In this document: piece after piece, positions 1 to 11,609 of the stretch
How the letters are laid out: every line of letters starts with the position of its first letter
How positions within the stretch are numbered: position 1 is the stretch's first letter
DNA from: Omnitrophica WOR_2 bacterium RIFCSPHIGHO2_02_FULL_52_10
GTDB taxonomy: Bacteria; Omnitrophota; Gorgyraeia; Zapsychrales; Zapsychraceae
Length of the DNA: 11,609 bases
NCBI GenBank assembly: GCA_001805655.1
Contig: MHGR01000005.1
Location: forward strand, 1-11,609
Direction: 5' to 3'
Notes under the pieces: model-generated
Seen by the model: only the letters and a program-made list of their open reading frames with translations
Told to the model about the DNA's origin: nothing
The model's database searches: none
Position numbers and translations under genes: made by a program

Positions 1-48
1 ACCGGCGGCATCCCGCTTGGCCGCCGTTGTCATCGCAGCTGTTCATCC

Positions 49-54
49 AAAGGA
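49..54 (+). promoter_or_regulatory. Shine-Dalgarno site for gcvPA
   Basis: AAAGGA lies five bases before a TTG codon at 60-62. Translation from that TTG gives an N-terminus beginning M-I-P-Y-I, which is how GcvPA proteins normally start. An earlier in-frame TTG at 27 has no comparable site and would add 11 residues that do not resemble the family. The site therefore decides the start. Confidence 0.6.
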
Positions 55-59
55 TACCG

Positions 60-1451
60 TTGATCCCCTACATCGCCAGTACGGAAAAAGACATCGAAGC
101 CATGTTGAAGACCGTTGGCGTTTCTTCGCCGGAGGAGCTCTTCCGCGACATCCAGCCCCGCCACAGGCCCAAGTCGTTTGACCTTCCGGAAGGAATGTCC
201 GAGTTTGAGATTGTCGAGCATGCCAAGCGGCTGGCCGCCAAGAATGCCTCCGGCCTGGTGCAGTTCATCGGCGGCGGATATTGCGACCACTATGTCCCGG
301 CCGCCGTGAAGGCCCTGGTTTCTCGGGGGGAATTCTACACCGCCTACACGCCCTATCAGCCGGAATGCGCGCAGGGCACCCTGCAGGCCCTCTATGAGTT
401 CCAGAGCGCCATTTGCGCCCTGACGGACATGGAGGTGGCCAACGCCTCCCTCTATGACGGCGGCACGGCCCTTTATGAGGCCGCCATGATGGCGATCCGC
501 ATCACTGGCAGAAAAAAGATCATCATGGACGGCGGGGTCAGCCCTATCTACCGCAAGATATTAAGGACATACACGGGCAATCTTTCCTATGAATTCCGGG
601 AAACACCCGTCATTCACGGTCAGAGCAGCCGCGAAGATATTTCTAAATTGCTGGACCATGACACGGCGGCCGTGATTTTGCAGAATCCGAATTTCTTCGG
701 GGCTATCGATGATCACACGGATATCGTTGAGCGCGCCCATGCCAAGGGGATTTTGGTGATTGAGAGCGTTTATCCCATATCGCTCGGACTGCTCAAGACC
801 CCGGGCGACATGGGGGCGGACATCGTCACCGGCGAAGGGCAGAGCCTGGGGCTGCCGCTGAATTTTGGCGGGCCGTACCTCGGCTTCATGGCCACGCGCA
901 AGCAATTCATACGCAAGATGCCGGGGCGCGTGGTCGGCGAAACCGTGGACGCCGCCGGCCGGCGGTGTTTTGTCAACACCCTGCAGGCCCGGGAGCAGCA
1001 TATCCGCCGGGAAAAAGCGACCTCGAATATCTGCACGAATGTTTCATTATGCGCTCTGCAAGCGGTCATTTACCTGTCCCTCTTGGGCAAGAGCGGGTTC
1101 AAGGAGTTGGCGCAGCTGAACCTGGACAAGGCGGAATTCGCCAAACAGGAAATCGCAAAAGTCGACGGCGTTGAAGTGAAGAGGAGCTCGCCGACCTTCA
1201 ACGAGTTCACCGTCCATCTGCCGGTCAACGCTTCAAAAGTGGCCGGGGCCATGATCAAGAAGGGCTTTGCCGCCGGTTTTCCACTAGGGCGGTATTACAA
1301 GGGCATGGAGCAGTACATGGTCGTCGCCGTCACGGAAAAAAGGACAAGGGAGGAAATATTGAAATATGCGCAGGCGTTGAAGGATGTGTTACGTAGTGGC
1401 GGGGTGACCCCGCCCCTACATTTAGGGGTGCCTGGATCGAAAGAGGATTGA
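60..1451 (+). CDS. gcvPA: glycine dehydrogenase (decarboxylating) subunit 1
   Basis: This is the alpha (non-PLP-lysine) half of split glycine decarboxylase, the cytoplasmic P-protein of the glycine cleavage system. With GcvPB it decarboxylates glycine and transfers the aminomethyl group to lipoyl-GcvH. The start at TTG 60 gives 463 residues, with an N-terminus (IPYIASTEKDIEAML) typical of the family. Conserved-looking segments include GGGYCDHYVP (about 71-80), TAYTPYQPE (about 94-102) and the Y-D-G-G-T-A stretch (about 132-137). The subunit normally lacks the PLP lysine, as here. About 444 residues precede a GC-rich palindrome (1393-1419), which together with flanking sequence encodes the last 15-20 residues. 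That tail is unlike the family and makes the protein slightly longer than the usual 440-450. gcvPB follows after 9 bases, so the two are surely co-transcribed. Anything upstream, such as gcvT or gcvH, is outside the window. Confidence 0.95.
   Translation: MIPYIASTEKDIEAMLKTVGVSSPEELFRDIQPRHRPKSFDLPEGMSEFEIVEHAKRLAAKNASGLVQFIGGGYCDHYVPAAVKALVSRGEFYTAYTPYQPECAQGTLQALYEFQSAICALTDMEVANASLYDGGTALYEAAMMAIRITGRKKIIMDGGVSPIYRKILRTYTGNLSYEFRETPVIHGQSSREDISKLLDHDTAAVILQNPNFFGAIDDHTDIVERAHAKGILVIESVYPISLGLLKTPGDMGADIVTGEGQSLGLPLNFGGPYLGFMATRKQFIRKMPGRVVGETVDAAGRRCFVNTLQAREQHIRREKATSNICTNVSLCALQAVIYLSLLGKSGFKELAQLNLDKAEFAKQEIAKVDGVEVKRSSPTFNEFTVHLPVNASKVAGAMIKKGFAAGFPLGRYYKGMEQYMVVAVTEKRTREEILKYAQALKDVLRSGGVTPPLHLGVPGSKED
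1393..1419. repeat. GC-rich REP-like palindrome inside the 3' end of gcvPA
   Basis: Two 13-base arms, 1393-1405 and 1407-1419, pair at 12 of 13 positions around a single central base. The sequence runs GTAGTGGCGGGGT, then g, then ACCCCGCCCCTAC. The only mismatch pairs 1397 with 1415. The palindrome is read in frame as R-S-G-G-V-T-P-P-L-like residues beyond the point where GcvPA proteins usually end. This form suggests a REP/MITE-like interspersed element that landed at the gene end. Its mRNA hairpin would sit about 40 bases before the gcvPB start. That it is a dispersed family is inferred; only one copy was seen in this window. Confidence 0.6.
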
Positions 1452-1460
1452 TTTATCGAT

Positions 1461-2912
1461 ATGCAATTAATTTTCGAGAAAAGCGTGGAAGGCCGCCGGG
1501 GATTTGAAGTCCCGCGCTCGGATGTCGGGTTCAAGGCGCAGATTCCTCAGCCGTATAGGAGGCGCCGGGACTGCCCGCTGCCCGAGGTTTCCGAACTGGA
1601 CGTAGTGCGCCATTTCACGCTGTTGTCCCAGAGAAATTATTCCGTTGACACGCAGTTCTATCCGCTCGGCTCCTGCACGATGAAGTATAACCCTAAATTT
1701 ACCGAAGTGATTGCCGCCATGCCGGGGTTTGCCGATCTGCACCCACTTTTGCCCCAGCTGGAAGACGGCGAGAAGCTGGTGCAGGGGGCGCTGGAGGTCA
1801 TCTTTGAACTTGAGCAATGGCTGTGCGAAATAACGGGCATGCGCCGCTTTACCATGCAGCCGCTCGCCGGCGCGCACGGTGAATTGACGGGCGTCATGAT
1901 CATGGCGGCCTACCACAAAACGAAGGGAAACAAAAAAAAATATATCATCGTGCCGGATTCGGCCCACGGCACCAATCCAGCGACAGCCGCCATCGCCGGT
2001 TACGAGATTGTCGCGGTGCGCTCCGATAGCCGCGGCGTCATGGACTTAAACGAGCTGCGGGAAAAGCTCACTGATGAGGCGGCCGGGCTCATGCTCACCT
2101 GCCCCAACACGCTGGGGATATTCAATGCCGATGTGGACACCATCGCCGACATGATTCACGCGGTGGACGGGCTCATGTATTGCGACGGGGCGAACCTCAA
2201 CGCGATTCTGGGACGCTGCCGGCCGGGCGACATCGGCTTTGACGTCATGCACCTCAACACGCACAAGACCTTCACGACACCGCACGGCGGCGGCGGCCCG
2301 GGGGCCGGACCCGTCGGCGTTGTGGAAAAATTGGTACCGTTTTTGCCCATCTCTCTGGTGGACCGGCGGGAGGACGGCACGTATTATTTAAACTACGACT
2401 ACCCGGAATCGATCGGCTATCTTTCCTCCTTCTACGGGAACTTCGCCATTTTGCTGCGGGCGTACGCCTATATTCTGATGGCCGGCCAGGCGGGGCTTAA
2501 GGCGATCAGCGCCCACGCGGTGCTGAACGCCAATTACATCAAGGAGCGGTTGAAACCATATTACAAAATAGCCTATGACCGCCCGTGCATGCATGAAGCC
2601 GTGTTTTCGGCGTCGGAGCAGGCCCGGCGCGGCGTTCACGCGACCGACATTGCCAAATTCCTCATCGACCAGAATATCCATCCCCCGACCGTGTATTTCC
2701 CCCTGTCCGTCAAGGAGGCGATCATGATCGAGCCGACCGAGACGGAGTCAAAAGAAACGATGGACCGCTTTGTCGAAGCGATGATCCAGGCCGATGAGCT
2801 CAGCCGCGCGGACCCGGAAGCCTTCCATGACCTTCCCAAGACAACCGTTGTGTCCCGCCCGGACGAAGTCAAAGCCGCCCGCGATCTCAACACGAATTAT
2901 TTCGCCCGTTAG
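1461..2912 (+). CDS. gcvPB: glycine dehydrogenase (decarboxylating) subunit 2
   Basis: This is the beta, PLP-binding half of split glycine decarboxylase, 483 residues, a normal length for the family. The PLP lysine is K269 in the motif HLNTHKTFTTPHGGGGPG (about 264-281), encoded at 2265-2267. Other family landmarks are the N-terminal FYPLGSCTMKYNPK (about 66-79), PDSAHGTNPATAA (165-177) and the Y-C-D-G-A-N-L-N stretch (240-247). It assembles with GcvPA, probably as an alpha2-beta2 enzyme, and hands aminomethyl groups to lipoyl-GcvH. The ATG at 1461 starts the expected N-terminus. A possible ribosome site, AAGAGGA at 1441-1447, is 13 bases upstream, further than ideal, so coupling to gcvPA translation is likely. 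A run of nine A at 1932-1940 is crossed without loss of frame. Confidence 0.97.
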   Translation: MQLIFEKSVEGRRGFEVPRSDVGFKAQIPQPYRRRRDCPLPEVSELDVVRHFTLLSQRNYSVDTQFYPLGSCTMKYNPKFTEVIAAMPGFADLHPLLPQLEDGEKLVQGALEVIFELEQWLCEITGMRRFTMQPLAGAHGELTGVMIMAAYHKTKGNKKKYIIVPDSAHGTNPATAAIAGYEIVAVRSDSRGVMDLNELREKLTDEAAGLMLTCPNTLGIFNADVDTIADMIHAVDGLMYCDGANLNAILGRCRPGDIGFDVMHLNTHKTFTTPHGGGGPGAGPVGVVEKLVPFLPISLVDRREDGTYYLNYDYPESIGYLSSFYGNFAILLRAYAYILMAGQAGLKAISAHAVLNANYIKERLKPYYKIAYDRPCMHEAVFSASEQARRGVHATDIAKFLIDQNIHPPTVYFPLSVKEAIMIEPTETESKETMDRFVEAMIQADELSRADPEAFHDLPKTTVVSRPDEVKAARDLNTNYFAR

Positions 2913-2949
2913 TCACTTACGTCCAATTCCCAAGCTGCAGCGAAAACCG

Positions 2950-2978
2950 TTGACAGGATTTTAAAAGAAATTCAAAAT
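2950..2978 (+). promoter_or_regulatory. predicted sigma70-type promoter for the lipoate ligase gene
   Basis: A perfect TTGACA (2950-2955) is followed by a 17-base spacer and CAAAAT (2973-2978), which matches TATAAT at four of six positions. It lies in the 148-base gap after gcvPB. It suggests that the lipoate ligase gene can be transcribed independently of gcvPAB. Transcription would start near 2985, upstream of both possible starts of the gene. The prediction rests on sequence match only. Confidence 0.45.
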
Positions 2979-3060
2979 ACTGCTAACGCTTTGCCGCCAA
3001 GATGAGTTGGTAGCGCTCCGGCGCGCGCTGACGGCATATAACCCACGGCTTACGACGCCC

Positions 3061-3795
3061 ATGCTTTTAAAAGACATTTCTCTCAAACTTCCCCAGGAAA
3101 ATATTTTATACGATGAAGTGTTGTTGGAGCTCGCGGAGAGGGGCCATTCCGGCGAAGTTTTACGTTTCTGGGAATCGGAGCAGCTGTTCATTGTCCTCGG
3201 CCGGACCGGCAAGGAAGCAGAGGATATTAATGTGGATGCCGCCCACCGGGACCAGATACCCGTCTTGCGTCGCGCGTCCGGCGGCGGAACCGTGCTGCAG
3301 GGGCCGGGCTGCCTGAATTATTCTCTGGTCTTGTCCAAAGGCCATGATCCGGCCATTGCCGATTTACGGAAATCCTATGAATTTATCCTTGGCAAGGTCA
3401 TTGTGGCCTTACGGAATGTCGGCATTAAGGCGGAGTTCTACCCCATTTCTGATATCGCCTTAATTGAGGGGCACAAGAAGATTTCCGGCAACGCGCAGAA
3501 GCGCGCCAAAAAATTTATCCTTCACCACGGGACCATCCTCTATAATTTTGATCTGACGAAATTCGAGCGGTATCTTAAAATGCCCGCGGATGTCCCCGAA
3601 TACCGCCAGGGGCGCTCCCACGCGGAATTTGTAGCGAACATCCCATCCGAGGTCAGGGACATCAAAAAGGCGCTTTATGATGCGTTCGCGGTCAGCAGGG
3701 AGGAGCAGTTCATGGACAGCCGGGAACTGGAATGCCTGCAGGAATTTCTGGACACAAGAAACGCCCGGCAGGAGCCGGCCAAGCATCAGAGGTGA
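3061..3795 (+). CDS. lipoate-protein ligase A family protein, catalytic domain only
   Basis: This is a member of the biotin/lipoate A/B ligase family, 244 residues from ATG 3061. Visible motifs are RRASGGGTVLQGPGCLNYS (about 70-88), the lysine motif GHKKISGNAQKR (about 137-148, with K140 in the position of the lipoate-binding lysine), HHGTILYNFDL (155-165) and PEYRQGRSHAEF (179-190). The expected substrate is the lipoyl lysine of GcvH or 2-oxoacid dehydrogenase E2 proteins. It ends soon after the catalytic domain and lacks the roughly 90-residue accessory domain of E. coli LplA (338 residues), as in two-part LplA/LplB enzymes. No cysteine is seen just ahead of the lysine motif, where LipM-type octanoyltransferases are expected to carry theirs. 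The start is uncertain: ATG 3061 fits the family's N-terminus but has no clear ribosome site, and an in-frame TTG at 3007 would add 18 unremarkable residues. Ligase versus transferase activity cannot be settled here. Confidence 0.85.
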   Translation: MLLKDISLKLPQENILYDEVLLELAERGHSGEVLRFWESEQLFIVLGRTGKEAEDINVDAAHRDQIPVLRRASGGGTVLQGPGCLNYSLVLSKGHDPAIADLRKSYEFILGKVIVALRNVGIKAEFYPISDIALIEGHKKISGNAQKRAKKFILHHGTILYNFDLTKFERYLKMPADVPEYRQGRSHAEFVANIPSEVRDIKKALYDAFAVSREEQFMDSRELECLQEFLDTRNARQEPAKHQR

Positions 3796-4072: not shown

Positions 4073-4942
4073 ATGAGCTATTATAAAGTTTTGGGGTTTG
4101 AGAAAGAGCCGTTTTCCACCAGCCCGGATCCCAATTACTTCTATCTTTCCCGCGAGCATGAGCAGGCCCTGACCAACACCCTCATTGAATTGCGCTTAAG
4201 AAGGGGCTTAAGCGTCATCTTGGGCGACATCGGAACGGGGAAAACGACATTGTCCCGCAAGCTCATCCAGGAATTGAAAGTTCGGCAGGATGTGATTTTT
4301 CACATCGTCCTGGATCCTTCGTTTGAAAATGAAAATATGTTCCTGCGCTCCCTGGCGAGAAATTTCGAAATACCGATTCCTGAAGCGCAGGCGCCCTCCT
4401 CCCTGGATTTGCGCGATGCCCTTGAGCGGTTTCTTTTCCAGAAAGGCGTGACCGAGAACAGGTCGGTGGTGCTGATCATCGACGAAGCGCAAAAGCTCAA
4501 CGAAATGTCCCTGGAAGTGCTGCGCGTCCTGCTGAATTATGAAACGAATGAGTATAAGCTTCTGCAATTGGTCCTGCTCGGCCAGACAGAGCTGCATGCC
4601 AAGATCATGAACATCCCGAATTTTTTCGACAGGATCAGTTTTATATACACATTGAATCCGTTCAGTCTCAAAGAGACGGAGGAGATGATCAATTTCCGCA
4701 TCCGCAGGGCGGGCTATCAATCGCGGATGCACTTGTTTCTTAAAGATGCCGTTGTTGAGATTCATAGAGCCACCCACGGCTATCCGAGGCGGATCATCAT
4801 GCTCTGCCATAAGGCGCTTAAGGAATTGGTCATGCGCAACAAATCCGTGGTCAGCGCGGGCATCATCGAAGAGATCATTCAAAACGAAATGCGGGCCGGA
4901 TGGCACAGGAAAGATCCTCTACTCCTGAAAAACAGCTATTAG
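4073..4942 (+). CDS. ExeA/MshM-like AAA+ ATPase
   Basis: This is a cytoplasmic AAA+ ATPase of the ExeA/GspA/MshM group, 289 residues. The N-terminus (YYKVLGFEKEPFSTSPDP, then YLSREHEQAL) is the group's hallmark. Walker A is GDIGTGKT (51-58) and Walker B is LIIDEAQ (134-140). LLGQTEL (168-174) and the F-F-D-R segment (184-187) follow as expected, then a helical lid domain. ExeA of Aeromonas continues into a peptidoglycan-binding domain. This protein stops at the ATPase, as MshM-type proteins do. Known relatives help assemble secretins in the cell wall by energising a GspB/ExeB-like partner. The start is ATG 4073, with GGGGAAAGAG (4059-4068) as ribosome site. An in-frame TTG at 3989 lies within the promoter and is rejected. 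It is first in the operon, and its last 43 bases overlap the next gene. Confidence 0.9.
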   Translation: MSYYKVLGFEKEPFSTSPDPNYFYLSREHEQALTNTLIELRLRRGLSVILGDIGTGKTTLSRKLIQELKVRQDVIFHIVLDPSFENENMFLRSLARNFEIPIPEAQAPSSLDLRDALERFLFQKGVTENRSVVLIIDEAQKLNEMSLEVLRVLLNYETNEYKLLQLVLLGQTELHAKIMNIPNFFDRISFIYTLNPFSLKETEEMINFRIRRAGYQSRMHLFLKDAVVEIHRATHGYPRRIIMLCHKALKELVMRNKSVVSAGIIEEIIQNEMRAGWHRKDPLLLKNSY

Positions 4943-5592
4943 GTCTTATTGAAGACCCTAAACAGCAGGATTTAAGCCAGAAAAAATCAAAGCGCAGATC
5001 TTTGAATTTTTTTTCTATCGAGGCCCTGCGCGGCCGGTTTTCCTTCCTGCGGGAAAGCCTGAGCGCCGGGGCATTAAAGAAATTTCTGTTTGATATCAAA
5101 GGGCTCAATCGGGTCCTGAGAATATGCATCATTGTCCTGGCGGTCTATCTGGTCGGTTACTTTGCCATGGCGCTCGTCAGGATGAACGAGGCCCCCGAAT
5201 TCGAGAATAAGAGTTCCAGGGCTTCTGCGGAATATCGGCCGGCAGGGTTGTCCACGAAGAACGTGGCGTTTTACCTTGAAGGGCCGCGGGCGCGTAATAT
5301 TTTCACTTTCGGCGACATCACGAAAGAAAAAGTCGAGGAATTGAAAACCGAGGAAGTCGCCGCGCCCGTCGAAGTGACCGAAACGCCGGCGGCCATCTTG
5401 GCCGGCCAATTGGGGTTAGTGGGCATCGGCTGGTCCGATGACCCGGATGTCATGGTCGAGAATGTAGAGACCAAAAAGATGCACTTCTTGAAAAAGGGGC
5501 AGCGCATTGACGGAATGATTAAGGTAGAGGCGATATTCGAGGATAAGGTGATCCTGACGTACGATAACGGCAAGGAACTGGAATTGAGATAA
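4900..5592 (+). CDS. inner-membrane GspC/PilP-like component of the secretin system
   Basis: This 230-residue bitopic protein has a basic cytoplasmic N-terminus (about 1-72), one membrane helix (about 73-93, RICIIVLAVYLVGYFAMALV), a linker containing ARNIF (131-135), an acidic Glu/Val-rich spacer (145-165) and a C-terminal domain. That domain (about 170-230) has the GspC homology-region/PilP pattern: LVGIGWSDDPDVMVEN, then a phenylalanine and K-K-G-Q-R-I, a valine-rich strand and a final G-K-E-L-E-L. In type II secretion and pilus systems such domains bind the N0 domain of the secretin from the periplasm, linking it to the inner membrane. The start at ATG 4900 lies inside the ATPase gene, suggesting translational coupling. 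The secretin gene begins 21 bases after the stop. It could be called GspB-, GspC-, PilP- or MshK-like; sequence alone does not choose. Confidence 0.75.
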   Translation: MAQERSSTPEKQLLGLIEDPKQQDLSQKKSKRRSLNFFSIEALRGRFSFLRESLSAGALKKFLFDIKGLNRVLRICIIVLAVYLVGYFAMALVRMNEAPEFENKSSRASAEYRPAGLSTKNVAFYLEGPRARNIFTFGDITKEKVEELKTEEVAAPVEVTETPAAILAGQLGLVGIGWSDDPDVMVENVETKKMHFLKKGQRIDGMIKVEAIFEDKVILTYDNGKELELR

Positions 5593-5613: not shown

Positions 5614-7527
5614 ATGTTTATGCGAAGTATGACAAAAAATATCTTAGTGGTTGCGGCAGGCTGTCTATTAGCGGCCTGCGTGTATACCGCGCAGGTTTGC
5701 GCCCAAGCCGAGGAGGACGCGGCGGTGGATTCGGCGGGGACCCAGGTTGAGGAAGCCGCGCCGGCCATTGTCATCGAGGAAGCGCCGGAGCAAGAGCAAG
5801 AGCAAGAGCCGGCCGGGGAGACGATTACGGCCGAGGCGCAGGAGACCGAGGGCGAGCTCCCGCCGGAAGATGCGCTGCCCGCTTCCGGGGCCGAAAAAAA
5901 TCTTGATAATGCCCCGGTGAATGTGTTGGAGAAGCCGCGCAGGGTTAACATGAACCAATTGATTACCCTGGATTTGCGCAGCATGGATGTCAATGATGCC
6001 CTGACCTATATCTCCTTGCGCAGCGGGGCGAACATCGTGGCCAGCAAAGCGGTCACCGGGCGCGTCACCCTGCAGTTGAAGGATGTTTCCATTCAGGACG
6101 TTTTCGACATTACGCTCATCACCAACGGTTTGGCTTACGAGAAATACGGCGATATTTACTATGTGATGACGGAGCAGGAATATGAAGCGCGTTATGGCAA
6201 GAAATTCGCCGACATCCGCAAGGTCAGGACGTATCAGCTCAAATATGCCATCCCCGAGAAGGCCTTTGATCTGCTGGACACGCTCAAGAGCAGCATCGGC
6301 CGTATTTTGGTGGACCAGGAATCCGGCACCATCCTCATGGTGGACACGGAGGAGAAGCTGAACGAAATGGAAGCGACGCTCCAAACGCTGGAGCAAAAAG
6401 GCAATGTGAACATCTTTAATCTTCAGTACGCCCTGGCCACAGATGTCGAAGCACGGTTGAAGACACAGCTGGACGACAAGAACGTGGGCTCCATCTGGTC
6501 CGATGAGCGGAGCAATCAGGTCATTGTCCGGGCCCTGCCGGACCGGATGTTGGATGTCAAGGAGATCATCGCGGCACTGGATAAAAAGACCCTGGAGGTC
6601 CTCATTGACGCGAAAATAGTCCAGGTTCAATTATCCGATTCCCTGCAGACCGGTTTTGAGTGGGAAGGGATGTTTGAGGAGCTGTTTGACAGCGCCGGCG
6701 GTGGATTTGTCGGCAGCCATCCCCTGAATCCGGTCGAGCGGTTAAACCAGACCTTTATTGATGATTTCACGACGATCCAACCGGAGGACGCCAATCCTTC
6801 CGCCGGTTCCAAGGTGACGCCCGGCAAAGAGATATTTTTCGGGTCGGTCGACAAAAACCATTCCTTTGAAGCCGTGATGAAATTTCTAGCCACGCTGGGA
6901 GAAACGCGCCTATTATCTAACCCGAAACTGGCGGTGGTTAACAATCAGGAGGCGCGCATCCATGTCGGCCGCCAGGAGGCCTATATCACATCAACAACGA
7001 CGGCCGGCCAGACCACCACCACCACGGCGGAAGACGTGACCTTCGTTAACGTTGGCATCCAGCTTTCGGTGACGCCCACGATCAATGACGAAGGCTTTGT
7101 CACCATGAAGATCAAGCCGGAGATCAGCAGCGTGGTCGATACCCTGGTGACGCCCAGCGGCAACCAAATCCCGATCATTGACACGTCCCTGGCCGAGACG
7201 ACGGTGCTGGTCAAAGACGCCTCCACGATTATCATTGGGGGGCTGCGCCGGGATGAGGAAACGGAAAATTCAGAGCGCATTCCCTTTCTCGGAGATTTGC
7301 CTCTGCTCGGAAACCTGTTCAGGAATCAGACCAAGGCCACGCAGCGCAATGAGCTGCTGGTGATGATCACGCCGCATATCGTGGACGGAACGCGCATCTA
7401 TTCCGGGGACATCGATGATCCCGACAATCAACCGACAAAGACATTCAAAGATTACGATGAATATGATACAATTTCTGAAACCTACGGCCCGGATTTCGGC
7501 AGGCTGGACTACAAGCCGTTCCGGTAA
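5614..7527 (+). CDS. GspD/PilQ/MshL-family outer-membrane secretin
   Basis: This 637-residue protein should form the multimeric outer-membrane pore of a type II secretion or type IV pilus-like machine. After an export signal (about 1-32) comes an acidic Glu/Ala/Pro-rich linker (about 33-108). An N0-like domain follows (about 115-190), then N1/N2-like domains (about 204-325), then the secretin core (about 328-592). Landmarks in the core are ETRLLSNPKLAVVNNQEARI (430-449), a Thr-rich gate-region loop (about 459-471), VGIQLSVTPTI (480-490), TIIIGGL (538-544), FLGDLPLLGNLF (558-569) and the closing ELLVMITPHIV (580-590). A charged tail ends the protein. The signal is ambiguous: LAAC (19-22) fits a lipobox, while AQA (30-32) fits signal peptidase I. 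AAGGA at 5599-5603, 10 bases before ATG 5614, supports this start. Two N-domains before the core and the ATPase context favour MshL/PilQ-like over classical GspD. Confidence 0.93.
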   Translation: MFMRSMTKNILVVAAGCLLAACVYTAQVCAQAEEDAAVDSAGTQVEEAAPAIVIEEAPEQEQEQEPAGETITAEAQETEGELPPEDALPASGAEKNLDNAPVNVLEKPRRVNMNQLITLDLRSMDVNDALTYISLRSGANIVASKAVTGRVTLQLKDVSIQDVFDITLITNGLAYEKYGDIYYVMTEQEYEARYGKKFADIRKVRTYQLKYAIPEKAFDLLDTLKSSIGRILVDQESGTILMVDTEEKLNEMEATLQTLEQKGNVNIFNLQYALATDVEARLKTQLDDKNVGSIWSDERSNQVIVRALPDRMLDVKEIIAALDKKTLEVLIDAKIVQVQLSDSLQTGFEWEGMFEELFDSAGGGFVGSHPLNPVERLNQTFIDDFTTIQPEDANPSAGSKVTPGKEIFFGSVDKNHSFEAVMKFLATLGETRLLSNPKLAVVNNQEARIHVGRQEAYITSTTTAGQTTTTTAEDVTFVNVGIQLSVTPTINDEGFVTMKIKPEISSVVDTLVTPSGNQIPIIDTSLAETTVLVKDASTIIIGGLRRDEETENSERIPFLGDLPLLGNLFRNQTKATQRNELLVMITPHIVDGTRIYSGDIDDPDNQPTKTFKDYDEYDTISETYGPDFGRLDYKPFR

Positions 7528-7563: not shown

Positions 7564-8679
7564 ATGAACCAAAAGATTTTGCCAGTGATCACATTGACCC
7601 TGCTGGGTTTGCTTGGAACGGGAACCGGGTATGGCGAGCCGCTGGCCGCGTTATTCGGCGGCAAGAAAAATGAGGAACTGCTGAAACAGAACGCCCAAGA
7701 ATGCCAAGCCAAACTCGATGCCAAGGATCTGGAATATCAGAAACTGCGGGATACGAAAAAAGATGAGTCGGACGCGGCGCAAAGTTTGCGCGAAAAGAAC
7801 AGCACGCTGATGGAGGCCTATGAAAAATTGCAGAGCGACCAGCAGGCGATCGTGGAACAGCTGAACCGGCTGCGCCGGGATAACCAACGCTGCGAGGCCG
7901 TTAAGGAATCTTACGATCAGATGAATTTGGAGAATGAGGCGTTTATCGAGGAGAACAAGGCCATGGAGGTCGAGAAGGAAGAGCTGAAAATGACCCTGGA
8001 AAACTTGAAAATGCATGTTCAGGATCTCAACAAGGAAAATGAGGAGTTGAATTCTCTGTTATCGGAAGCCCAGGTCGATGATGAGGAAAAGGAGAGAAAG
8101 CTCCGCGGCAAGGTGCAAAAAGAGCTGGAAGACCTGGTCAGCCGGACCAAGTCATTAAAAGAAGAGAATGCCGCATTGGAAAAGCAAAACAAGGAAGCCA
8201 GGATGAACGCCGCTGTGGCGCAGTCAACCAATGAACGGCTCCAGGTTGAACTCGAATCCCACAAAAAAGATCTCGCCGCCATGGAGGAGGGCTTTCTGGG
8301 GATGAAGCAGGAGAACCGTTATCTGTCTCAGCAGACGTCGGAATTTCCAAAGAAAATCACCGATCTGGCCCGGCACAACCGCAAGCTCGTCAAGGAAACC
8401 GCCGACATGCATTACAACCTCGGGGTTTCCTTTATTAAAAGCCAGGAGTACGAGCGCGCAGTCAAAGAGTTCACTCAGGTGATTGAGTTGAAGCCGGATG
8501 ACGCGGACGCCCATTATAATTTGGGATACATTTACGCCGAGCACCTGGTGGACAGGCCGACGGCCATCAAGCATTTCAAGGATTATCTGGCTTATGCCAG
8601 AGACGCCAAGGACCGTGACTGGGTGAAGCAATATATCTTCACCTGGCAGACCTGGCAGGGGAAAGAAAAGGTCAAGTAG
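7564..8679 (+). CDS. exported coiled-coil and TPR-repeat protein
   Basis: This 371-residue protein has a signal peptide (about 1-24, KILPVITLTLLGLLGTGTGYG), so it probably acts in the periplasm. Residues about 36-270 are highly charged, Glu/Lys/Gln/Leu-rich and predicted by eye to be coiled coil. Two TPR repeats follow: about 280-313 (H-Y-N-L-G ... A-V-K-E-F) and about 314-347 (A-H-Y-N-L-G-Y ... A-I-K-H-F). The C-terminus carries a tryptophan cluster, WVKQYIFTWQTW (353-364). Coiled coil plus TPR is also the plan of CpoB/YbgF, but this coiled coil is much longer. As the fourth gene, 36 bases after the secretin, it may serve the machine as MshN- or PilF-type TPR proteins serve pili. That role is inferred from position. 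The ribosome site is weak (AGGT at 7550-7553). Confidence 0.8.
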   Translation: MNQKILPVITLTLLGLLGTGTGYGEPLAALFGGKKNEELLKQNAQECQAKLDAKDLEYQKLRDTKKDESDAAQSLREKNSTLMEAYEKLQSDQQAIVEQLNRLRRDNQRCEAVKESYDQMNLENEAFIEENKAMEVEKEELKMTLENLKMHVQDLNKENEELNSLLSEAQVDDEEKERKLRGKVQKELEDLVSRTKSLKEENAALEKQNKEARMNAAVAQSTNERLQVELESHKKDLAAMEEGFLGMKQENRYLSQQTSEFPKKITDLARHNRKLVKETADMHYNLGVSFIKSQEYERAVKEFTQVIELKPDDADAHYNLGYIYAEHLVDRPTAIKHFKDYLAYARDAKDRDWVKQYIFTWQTWQGKEKVK

Positions 8680-8798
8680 AAGCACTTGAGGGGGCTAATT
8701 AAAAAAATCAACATTTGAAACACTGGCATCCTTAAACCGAATAAATCGTGATAGATCTTTCAAGCCATTTCCGCAGTAAAATTCAAGTTTATCAAAGC

Positions 8799-11609
8799 AT
8801 GAAAAAGAGTAAGACCGCATTTGTTTGCTTTTTTATTCTATTTTCCGCACCATTGTTTTTTTCCCCGCTCAATGGATATGCAGCACTGGAGGAAGTGACT
8901 CCGGGGCTGACGGGGATGACCAAAGGCGGTGCCGTCCCGGTTGTCCGGGAAAGCCATCCCCTGCCGGAAGAAGTGGTCATCAAGCAGATCGTGGAAATCG
9001 AAAGAAACCGCCTGTATATGCTTCCCGTAGGATCGGATCTCGGTTTGAAGAAGGGTGGAACCATCGGCATCTACCGCTCCGGTAAGGAAGTGGCGGAAGT
9101 CCGCCTGATTTCTGTCCTTCCGGACAGTTCTATGGGCGAGGTAACGGAATTATTCAACATTACCGATATCTTCGAATCGGATACGGTCCGTATTACGGTG
9201 AAAAAAGAGGCGCCGACCGTGAGAACCACGCTCACAACCTCTGGGGAAAAAGAAGCGGTGAGCGATATCAAGGATGTTTATACGAGTACGGACGAGGACC
9301 AAACAAAGGGGATGCTCGGGAGCGAAAGCCATGTCAAGGAACAGGTGAAAAAGGTCCAAGACCCTTTGGTGGAGGAGGTCCAGGGGCTGAAGCAAGGGAT
9401 AGCAACGCTCAAGGAGGATTATGAAGGGAAAATGGAAGGGGTTCTTAATACCGTCGCCGGAGGCGGATCCAGGGCCGTCCTGGCCGCCGAGCGCAAATGG
9501 AAGCAGAAGCTGGAGGAGATCGAAAAAAATTATCAAACGCAGCTGACCAATCTTAGGGAAAGCCTGGAGCAACAGTTCCAAGGCGAGCGGGAAGCATTGG
9601 AGAGCAGGATTCAGGCGTTGACCCGGCAGATCGCTGAGGCAGGCGAATCCGCGGATGTGCGCACAAAACAGCTGCTGGTGGATCTTAAAGGATCAGATGT
9701 CTCCACCAAGACCCTGCAGCAGTCATTTGAGCAGGAGCGCCGGATCGCCGATAAGCAATGGCAGGAGAAAATGGCGGCCCTGGAAGAGCGCTACCAGAAT
9801 CAAATGAGGATCGAAAGGGAGGATTTTGAGCGTGAGTTGCGCCTTAACCGGGACACATTCCAGAGTAAGCTGTCGGAGTTTGAGAGCCAGCTTATTGTTT
9901 TCAGGGGGAACAGCGATAAAGAGGTTACCCAGCTTCGAAGCCAGCTGAAGGAGCAAAGGGAATTCATCGATTTGCTTAAGAAGGAGAAGGGCGAACTCGA
10001 AACCAATATGACCGATAAGAACCGGCAGCTCGTCAAATATAAAAAAGAGCATACGACCATGCAAGACGAGCTGAACCGGAGCAAAGCGACCTATGCCCAA
10101 AAAATCGACGGCGTGAAGCGCCCGCTGGAAGATGAGATTGAGCGCTTGCAGGAGCAGTTAGCCCAGCTCCAAGCCGACAGCGGCAAGAAATTGAATGAAG
10201 CGCAGAGGAACTATCAATTTGAGCTGCAGGCGCTGGAGGAGCAATGGAGCGCAAAATACGCCGCGGCGGCATCGCAGTCAAAAAGTGAAGTGGATACCTT
10301 AAGGACCGGCCTGACGGATCAGACGGCGCAGTGGCAGGCCCAGCTCAATGAGGCGCAGGGCAAGGCGGCCGCGCTCGAACAGGCCGGGATGGCCAATGCG
10401 ACAGCCGTCAAGGATTATGAAAAATTGCTGAGAGAGTATAAGCTGAACATCAAAGACCTGGAGGAAAGGCTGCACGAAACTGAGGTCTCCCGCGAGGAGG
10501 CGATTCAAACCGCCCGGGCCTCTCTGGAGCAGGAGCTGGAAGAACTCAGGAACAGATTGGTCGAAGCGGTGGACAGCTATGAGGGGAAACTGAACGAATT
10601 GAAAGCGAACACGCAGTTTGAGGTATCCGCCGCCGAGCGGGGATGGAGCGAGCAGAAGATGGCGCTGGAGAAAAAGATCGGGGAAGACGCCTCGCTCATC
10701 GAGTTCCTGAACGGGGAGATGTCCTCCCTGACCAGCGATGTCGAAGACCGCTCGCAGAAGATTGCCAAATTGGAGGAGGAAGTGGCTTTTCTGAAAAACG
10801 GCATGGATTCTATGGTCGCGTCCAATCAAACCATTCAGGAGAAAGCGCAAAGCGATATTCTGGCGGCCGAGGTTCAGTGGCAGGAGCGGCTGAAGACTGA
10901 AACAGCCAAGCATGAGGCAGAACTGGCCGCGGTTAAGCAGCAGGCGGCCGATCAGGTCAGCACGGTACAGGCGGCCATGGGTCAGCTCAAAGGGGACAAT
11001 GCGTCTCAGGTAAACGGGCTGGAGGCCAAAATACTGGAGAAAGGCGGCGCCATTAAATCGTTGGAAGAACAAATCGCCAAGCAGGGGGAGCACGTTAGGT
11101 CGCAGGAGGCGGAAATTTCGAAATATGAAAACGATATCGCCAAGCTGAAAGACACCTTGGCCGATACGAAGTTGTCCCAATCCAGGAAGGTGGAAAAGGC
11201 CACAAAATCGCTGAGCGTAAAAATTGAAAAATTGAGCCGTGAGTTCGTACAAACTGAACGGAAATATGAATCCCAGATCTCTGATCTCCTGCGCAAGGCC
11301 AAAAATGATCTTTTAGACAATGAGGAGCAGTGGCAGGCGCAATTGGAGACGGAACAGAAGAGCCATCAGGAAGAATACGCCGCGTTGCGTCAGGGAAGCG
11401 AAGCAAAAGTAACAGAACTCCAGGCACAGGTAGATCAATTAAAGAAGGACCATGAGCTTGCCCTTAACAAGGTTCGGGAGGAATCCGGTAAAACATTATC
11501 CGCATCCGAGGCGCAGTGGCAGGCGCAATTGGAGACGGAACAAAAGCGTCATCAGGAAGAATACGCCGCTCTCCGACAGGGGAGCGAGGCGAAAGTAAAC
11601 GATCTCCAG
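8799..11609 (+). CDS. very long exported coiled-coil protein with Trp-centred repeats (5' part; runs off the window)
   Basis: The frame is open from ATG 8799 to the last base: 937 codons without a stop, so the gene is cut by the window edge. I do not recognise a named family. Residues 1-28 form a signal peptide (MKKSKTAFVCFFILF, ending near N-G-Y-A). Residues about 59-132 form a small beta-rich domain with VGSDLGLKKGGTIGIYRSGK, resembling SH3-like or FlgT-C-like barrels of envelope proteins. From about 165 onward the chain is almost entirely Glu/Lys/Gln/Ala/Leu coiled coil with no further membrane segment. Its eight tryptophans (residues 234, 321, 483, 512, 616, 694, 845, 907) all fall in one motif close to A-x-E-x-Q-W-Q-x-x-L. 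No strong ribosome site is seen. The 119-base gap after the TPR gene leaves open whether it is in the same operon. A filament, tether or substrate of the adjacent machine is conceivable but unproven. Confidence 0.85.
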   Translation, partial: MKKSKTAFVCFFILFSAPLFFSPLNGYAALEEVTPGLTGMTKGGAVPVVRESHPLPEEVVIKQIVEIERNRLYMLPVGSDLGLKKGGTIGIYRSGKEVAEVRLISVLPDSSMGEVTELFNITDIFESDTVRITVKKEAPTVRTTLTTSGEKEAVSDIKDVYTSTDEDQTKGMLGSESHVKEQVKKVQDPLVEEVQGLKQGIATLKEDYEGKMEGVLNTVAGGGSRAVLAAERKWKQKLEEIEKNYQTQLTNLRESLEQQFQGEREALESRIQALTRQIAEAGESADVRTKQLLVDLKGSDVSTKTLQQSFEQERRIADKQWQEKMAALEERYQNQMRIEREDFERELRLNRDTFQSKLSEFESQLIVFRGNSDKEVTQLRSQLKEQREFIDLLKKEKGELETNMTDKNRQLVKYKKEHTTMQDELNRSKATYAQKIDGVKRPLEDEIERLQEQLAQLQADSGKKLNEAQRNYQFELQALEEQWSAKYAAAASQSKSEVDTLRTGLTDQTAQWQAQLNEAQGKAAALEQAGMANATAVKDYEKLLREYKLNIKDLEERLHETEVSREEAIQTARASLEQELEELRNRLVEAVDSYEGKLNELKANTQFEVSAAERGWSEQKMALEKKIGEDASLIEFLNGEMSSLTSDVEDRSQKIAKLEEEVAFLKNGMDSMVASNQTIQEKAQSDILAAEVQWQERLKTETAKHEAELAAVKQQAADQVSTVQAAMGQLKGDNASQVNGLEAKILEKGGAIKSLEEQIAKQGEHVRSQEAEISKYENDIAKLKDTLADTKLSQSRKVEKATKSLSVKIEKLSREFVQTERKYESQISDLLRKAKNDLLDNEEQWQAQLETEQKSHQEEYAALRQGSEAKVTELQAQVDQLKKDHELALNKVREESGKTLSASEAQWQAQLETEQKRHQEEYAALRQGSEAKVNDLQ
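11328..11423 (+). repeat. direct repeat, copy 1, within the coiled-coil gene
   Basis: This 96-base unit encodes QWQAQLETEQKSHQEEY and 15 further residues. It matches 11514-11609 at 83 of 96 bases by hand count. The two copies are spaced 186 bases apart (62 residues), keeping the frame. Most differences are at third positions, pointing to a recent in-frame duplication. Confidence 0.85.
11514..11609 (+). repeat. direct repeat, copy 2, truncated by the window end
   Basis: This is the second copy of the 96-base unit, encoding QWQAQLETEQKRHQEEY and 15 further residues. It reaches the last base of the window, so the unit and the array may continue. Six older, more diverged versions of its core motif are scattered upstream in the same gene. 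Confidence 0.8.

Follow-up and report, generated by a model that had tools for sequence, protein, structure and literature searches.

What is the giant protein encoded behind a secretin operon in Omnitrophica WOR_2 bacterium RIFCSPHIGHO2_02_FULL_52_10, and why do its eight visible tryptophans recur in one motif? The window, that is, the whole stretch of DNA analyzed here, is one complete contig of 11,609 bp (MHGR01000005.1, contig C5 of genome G000, which comprises 1.56 Mb in 137 contigs and is 76% complete). A first-pass annotation, made from the sequence alone, had described an exported coiled coil; its range extends to 11609, where the contig itself runs out. A recount confirmed the 937 codons and the eight tryptophans with their positions, spacings (87, 162, 29, 104, 78, 151, and 62 residues) and preceding residues (Q in six cases, K and G in one each). 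The giant family is real and unusual, and we give roughly even chances to its being a lineage-specific envelope tether similar to TolA and TonB, working with a secretin of the type II secretion system (T2SS) or type IV pilus (T4P) type. The W motif itself is probably functional. New compared to the first-pass annotation are a PL-41-W module, an N-terminal barrel, and a C-terminal domain of the TolA-III/TonB type.

The features of the giant are as follows; tryptophan codons are ranked among 750 window positions by a profile that was built from relatives alone and leaves out the W column.

8799..11609, +, giant exported coiled-coil gene; 937 codons visible, no stop, truncated at the contig end
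8799..8882, +, signal-peptide-like N-terminus, residues 1–28; cleavage read by eye
8967..9203, +, small beta-barrel domain, residues 57–135
9321..11609, +, coiled coil from approximately residue 175; model helices 175–219 and 224–379, the remainder from composition and periodicity
9363..9368, +, PL motif P189, 45 residues before W234
9498..9500, +, W234 codon, strong motif, rank 2/750
9759..9761, +, W321 codon, strong motif, rank 1/750; W in 5/5 aligned relatives
10122..10127, +, PL motif P442, exactly 41 residues before W483
10245..10247, +, W483 codon, rank 9/750
10332..10334, +, W512 codon, weak motif, rank 34/750
10644..10646, +, W616 codon, weak motif, rank 51/750
10878..10880, +, W694 codon, strong motif, rank 5/750
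11322..11423, +, first copy of a 102-nt direct repeat
11331..11333, +, W845 codon, strong motif, rank 4/750
11508..11609, +, second copy of the repeat, 86% identical (88/102 bases), terminating exactly at the contig end
11517..11519, +, W907 codon, strong motif, rank 3/750

The tryptophan motif and its hendecad islands

Length-limited searches of 5.8 billion proteins with the C- and N-terminal regions of one relative, P0001, yielded six and five proteins, respectively (seven distinct); a protein search with residues 1–480 of P0006 recovered P0006 alone among the best 7989 word-sharing candidates scored. Five relatives look full length (1565, 1913, 2032, 2195, and 2601 amino acids). Named relatives come from the Candidatus Omnitrophota metagenome-assembled genome contigs JAKQAH010000084.1, JAGLQN010000221.1, and JAFGFL010000080.1, and one from another genus of the same family, MHGQ01000069.1.

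The flanks of the window tryptophans score 54.2 bits, compared to 40.9 ± 1.6 for 2000 random sets of eight positions drawn from this protein, the highest of which reaches 48.2, and the same test in P0001, P0003, and P0006 gives z of 13.1, 17.0, and 5.8. Four features define the motif: an acid at –3, a base at +3, a hydrophobic residue at +4, and E, D, or Q at +8. At least three of them accompany 119 of the 158 coil tryptophans in 11 sequences or fragments, which overlap and are related, so that the counts are not independent, versus 502 of 13,952 non-W positions. The other 39 include 19 matching at most one feature, chiefly in SRSKWIASVKxPLE and SLWDEAKKEL contexts. The first-pass annotation placed every tryptophan in the motif and none outside it: the window has six good copies, but W512 and W616 are weak, which makes “every” slightly too strong, and tryptophan at large in relatives, named there as grounds for rejection, is seen only in the 39 of 158 cases with fewer than three features. 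The second block reported after several copies (KxHQEEYAALRQ) is clear behind W845 and W907, and looser behind W694.

It could be argued that the motif is functionless, a relic left by duplicated repeats in a coil that is drifting. Middle modules are indeed copied, as seen in the 102-nt repeat of the window and in arrays of P0004, in agreement with the first-pass suggestion of a decayed tandem array, and middle tryptophans shift their place, with window tryptophans retained in P0006 in three of eight cases and in P0002 in five of seven aligned ones. However, tryptophans of the non-expanding parts are kept: W321 is invariant, and nine aligned tryptophans of P0006 correspond to W in P0002 in all nine cases (39% identity) and in P0001 in seven (36%). 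Moreover, W is the central residue at 125 of the 144 positions with flanks of at least 14 bits. We consider the relic the least likely of the alternatives discussed here. The assembly was presumably broken by the same 102-nt repeat; a search for a second copy or continuation of the giant in the rest of the genome gave E 0.012 at best.

With tryptophans masked, the hydrophobicity period is strongest at 3.67, or 11/3, near W (152 windows in 10 sequences) and at 3.55 where the nearest W is over 30 residues away (6050 windows in 10 sequences). Hydrophobic columns occur at –29, –26, –22, –18, –15, –11, –7, –4, 0, 4, 7, 11, 15, 18, 22, 26, 29, and 33, those at –4, 7, and 18 being weaker (0.33–0.37). 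At the sequence level these columns are hendecads in register, and W centers hendecad islands in a heptad-like coil. When the set of tryptophans is slid along the window protein, only eight of 717 shifts reach the observed hendecad preference; in ten relatives the corresponding values are 81/595, 57/995, 40/1563, 67/1215, 3/1845, 37/2251, 28/1048, 162/1682, 6/983, and 35/930. The direction is the same in 11 of 11 sequences, although several are weak. The first-pass idea of a register break was thus right in kind. As the single-chain structure model keeps one continuous helix through W234 and W321, the motif is not predicted to break the helix.

Geometry suggests that position 0 points toward the bundle axis, with ±4 approximately 33 degrees to each side. 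According to passages of PMC9858780, hendecads have one axis-facing core residue per repeat that must be small, or else the bundle is wider, as in FilP and Scy. Here, the axis position is occupied by Trp; in the 119 strong motifs, position –11 is S, A, G, or T in 77 (background 0.22) and +11 is Y, H, or W in 85 (background for Y/H/W/F 0.045). We predict that the clash is relieved either in an oligomer above the dimer or by a neighbor, staggered or antiparallel, that offers its small –11 residue for W to pack on. The protein resembles FilP and Scy of actinobacteria in being a long, hendecad-rich bacterial coil (PMC9858780); they differ in that FilP and Scy are cell-division coils with alanine-rich cores, whereas the giant is exported and has Trp at the axis position. 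DivIVA of Pfam does not match the window or four relatives. If this reading is right, Trp at the axis would make these coils a natural, repeated test of the small-residue rule.

The recognizable module appears in sequence as PL-41-W: the distance from PL to W is exactly 41 residues in 22 of 50 cases, and the runner-up distance accounts for six. In the other genus two of five PL motifs are at this distance, and in P0006, by eye the relative closest to the window in the N-terminal domain, none of four.

Terminal domains and the proposed link to secretins

The start is likely ATG 8799, as relatives open with MKN or VKN at the same point of the alignment. A 19-residue hydrophobic run starting at residue 6 is followed by Ala28, typical of cleavage and invariant in five of five aligned sequences. 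We take the barrel to be putatively FlgT-type, a label based on a fold match to 8z5n. Its only Pfam match in the window is Hen1_Lam_C (19.3 bits versus a cut-off of 25), FlgT_C matches in two relatives are under the cut-off (E 0.03 and 0.05), and the barrel profile has no matches among PDB sequences. A barrel encoded as a separate gene near other giants (L049, L039) was too weak to be used (prob 17.6).

The rest is a coil with two conserved ends flanking an expandable middle, followed in the orthologues by a C-terminal domain with alpha-beta-beta-alpha-beta order and, as modeled, the TolA-III/TonB fold (structural match). This domain was invisible to the first-pass annotation because the contig ends first. 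The giant ends like TolA and TonB, being a member of neither by Pfam or by neighborhood. As in TolA of the Tol-Pal system and in TonB, the fold caps an exported part that is long and either helical or extended; unlike them, the giant has an extra N-terminal barrel, a cleavable-looking N-terminus, no adjacent ExbB or TolQ gene, and a length of 1565–2601 amino acids, compared to a few hundred in TolA and TonB.

Other proteins of the order link the same type of domain to secretins. The domain profile matches an open reading frame (ORF) of more than 1000 codons in at least four of 81 genomes of the order (G001, G002, G004, G020), and an ORF of 513–774 codons in at least 60 of the 81. Ten of the latter were analyzed: Secretin is found in all ten and TonB_C above the cut-off in nine, the tenth (G018, near PilM, PilN and a GspC-like gene) having TonB_2 at 19.3 versus 22 bits. 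Secretins with a C-terminal TonB_C domain were seen at the following loci:

L159, 2472-4118, –
L160, 666-2762
L161, 1086-3080, –
L162, 687-2996 (two stretches)
L163, 1005-2459 (two stretches; in G038, with the secretin only partly covered, beside masked bases)
L164, 675-2276, –
L165, 3-1601
L166, 685-2355
L124, 1053-2918

In these secretins the domain is fused, whereas the giant is a separate protein beside a PilQ/GspD-like secretin. Together with gene order this makes it probable that the giant belongs to an envelope machine built on a secretin. As side observations, TonB_C-ended secretins look widespread in this order of Omnitrophota, RcpC/CpaB adjoining one of them, the sole neighborhood tested, and the T2SSE ATPase family has unusually many matches, 11–19 per genome, some of them weak (G000, G001, G002, G004, G020). 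No open-licence literature was found on a secretin combined with a TonB C-terminal domain and Tad.

As a straight helix, the coil would measure 190–344 nm, varying 1.8-fold among five relatives. The periplasm is much narrower. The coil is therefore no radial strut or ruler, and the periplasm-spanning filament proposed initially is not supported. The same length and the expandable middle would suit a secreted or surface fiber, with the coil leaving the cell, perhaps via the neighboring secretin, one end domain anchoring it, and Trp nodes touching other fibers or cells. We regard this as unlikely, as TolA-III and TonB C-terminal domains work in the periplasm. In favor of a fiber, passages of PMC10066038 discuss giant Omnitrophota ORFs as adhesins; against it, Pfam finds no adhesin domain in the window or four relatives.

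The C-terminal fold also invites comparison with an energized transducer of the TonB/TolA type, in which the N-terminus would stay uncleaved in the inner membrane and ExbB/ExbD would drive a pull on the outer membrane or the secretin. ExbB-type genes exist in the genus, one in each of the four genus members searched, including G000, and three in G020; but a separate, T4P-like cluster is where the ExbB locus is found, the genus also encodes ordinary TonB-like proteins of 235–261 amino acids, the invariant Ala28 looks like a cleavage site, and a flexible coil of this length would transmit a pull poorly. This makes a transducer somewhat less probable still than a surface fiber.

For the envelope tether, we propose that the giant would be exported by Sec, that its C-terminal domain would dock at the outer-membrane side on the neighboring secretin or a secretin partner, and that the barrel would dock on another envelope or ring component. 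Given the large and variable length, the coil may run along the envelope or fold back rather than cross the periplasm, and PL and Gly sites may act as hinges. At each node, the axis of the coil would hold the bulkiest of side chains and so require a contact that is wider, untwisted, or staggered, such as W packed on a neighbor's small –11 residue; nodes may set the register or lateral association, and modules would be gained or lost.

Several observations weigh against the tether. The C-terminus of the window protein is unseen and is deduced from orthologues approximately 33–34% identical over the aligned part; TonB_C and TonB_2 of Pfam do not match the C-terminal domains of four relatives (one partial) at E up to 1; the C-terminal profile finds no TonB among PDB sequences, its four matches all having E 0.11 or worse; and Foldseek alone gives E 0.0097 at best for this domain (TonB), with nothing under 0.001 for either the barrel or the C-terminal model. 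Cleavage of the signal peptide was judged by eye. Taken singly, the relatives with 81/595, 162/1682, 57/995, and 67/1215 shifts show a weak hendecad preference. An ORF and Pfam scan of the window finds no ExbB/ExbD or TolQ/TolR genes beside the giant, the ExbB match of this genome being on contig C62. The fusions show two domains capable of working together; they do not show binding of the giant's domain to the neighboring secretin. Finally, the same secretin operon occurs without the giant in genus g4.

If the tether is real, the TolA/TonB plan extends from a periplasm-sized strut to a modular fiber many times longer, and a TolA/TonB-type domain is tied to secretins in an uncultured phylum whose giants mostly have no assigned role. 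A bolder version, which we hold as doubtful as the transducer, is a new envelope fiber: a secretin-linked giant coiled coil with a TolA/TonB end, where W on the axis of hendecad nodes in PL-41-Trp modules would serve as programmed widening or docking points, cells would tune length and cross-linking by module gain and loss, and the fiber would possibly pass through the secretin to the outside.

Two other assignments were rejected. An SMC-like ATPase, the ordinary alternative named initially, is matched by NCBIfam SMC in the coil only (47.6 bits versus a cut-off of 729.4); LSGG is present in none of 11 sequences, some of them fragments, and Walker-A-like motifs in two, at unrelated places (P0002 at 899, P0004 at 122). 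Filament, Apolipoprotein, DUF16, and DUF4709 of Pfam all match under the cut-off, reflecting coil composition.

Operon, distribution, and other giants

According to Pfam and NCBIfam, the giant closes a run of five genes, of which the other four are:

4073..4942, +, AAA ATPase gene (Pfam AAA_22, E 1.5e-20), presumably ExeA/MshM-like
4900..5592, +, GspC-like gene (T2SSC E 0.0025, GspC_delta E 2.2e-6, both under the cut-off)
5614..7527, +, secretin gene (Secretin E 3.1e-50; PilQ and GspD models match under their own cut-offs)
7564..8679, +, coiled-coil/TPR protein gene (TPR_11 E 2e-12)

The secretin operon noted initially as lying next door is upstream of the giant in all four relatives with visible gene context. 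Some match at E ≤0.001 occurs in 20 of 55 genomes searched, and the barrel, the W motif, and the same gene place are found together in G001, G002, G004, and G020, besides the window. In G004 and G020 the giant is divided over two contigs, unjoined, and the contig of G003 (same genus) stops inside the secretin and is uninformative. Among the open-licence papers listed, no title or abstract names the family.

The operon is present without the giant in G007, G028, and G023; in G028 the secretin and the TPR protein are 46 and 29% identical to those of the window. The gene following the giant in its own genus is 42% identical to that in G020, and its relatives lie close behind the TPR gene in G007, G028, and G023 (approximately 30% identity), the space between being occupied by a 112-codon ORF in G007 and by a short TPR frame, probably broken, in G023. 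Therefore, one lineage either gained or lost the giant at this place. A transposase-like gene lies two genes past the giant in relatives of two genera: L042 13562-14881 (+; Y1_Tnp E 2.7e-8), and, by eye, L041 16918-18189 (+) and L126 1551-2849 (–). Upstream of the operon are genes for the two-subunit glycine decarboxylase and lipoate ligase (window 27-3795), likewise in G001, G004, and G020. A scan of 8500-8900 found no terminator and two promoter-like sites on the minus strand, and was uninformative.

In the described composition, the locus resembles the Glt gliding machinery of Myxococcus, where, according to passages of PMC3169522, a TonB-type domain (GltG), TPR proteins, and a giant (GltI, 4132 amino acids) belong to one envelope machine; there, the domains are on different proteins and a secretin is absent. 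Giant ORFs of Omnitrophota, as described in parts of PMC10066038, share the phylum, the very large size, and the unassigned role, but exceed 20 kb, many with transmembrane helices, compared to 4.7–7.8 kb in full-length relatives of our giant; “TonB,” “secretin,” and “coiled” each have zero occurrences in the main text of that paper.

Other long ORFs of the same order are coil-like: L049 8838-19118 (–; 3426 codons, one W), L050 1-9171 (+; at least 3056, no W), L051 2924-12271 (–; 3115, eight W), and L052 7017-11978 (–; 1653, four W). A further W-rich giant ORF, with only sub-threshold Kre9_KNH, lies downstream at L037 2-6514 (–; at least 2171 codons, 58 W). In G039, a giant ORF of at least 2483 codons with 112 W and an AGINWLDIDxLSD-like repeat (L122 6553-14001, +) is located downstream of the same AAA, GspC, and secretin genes.
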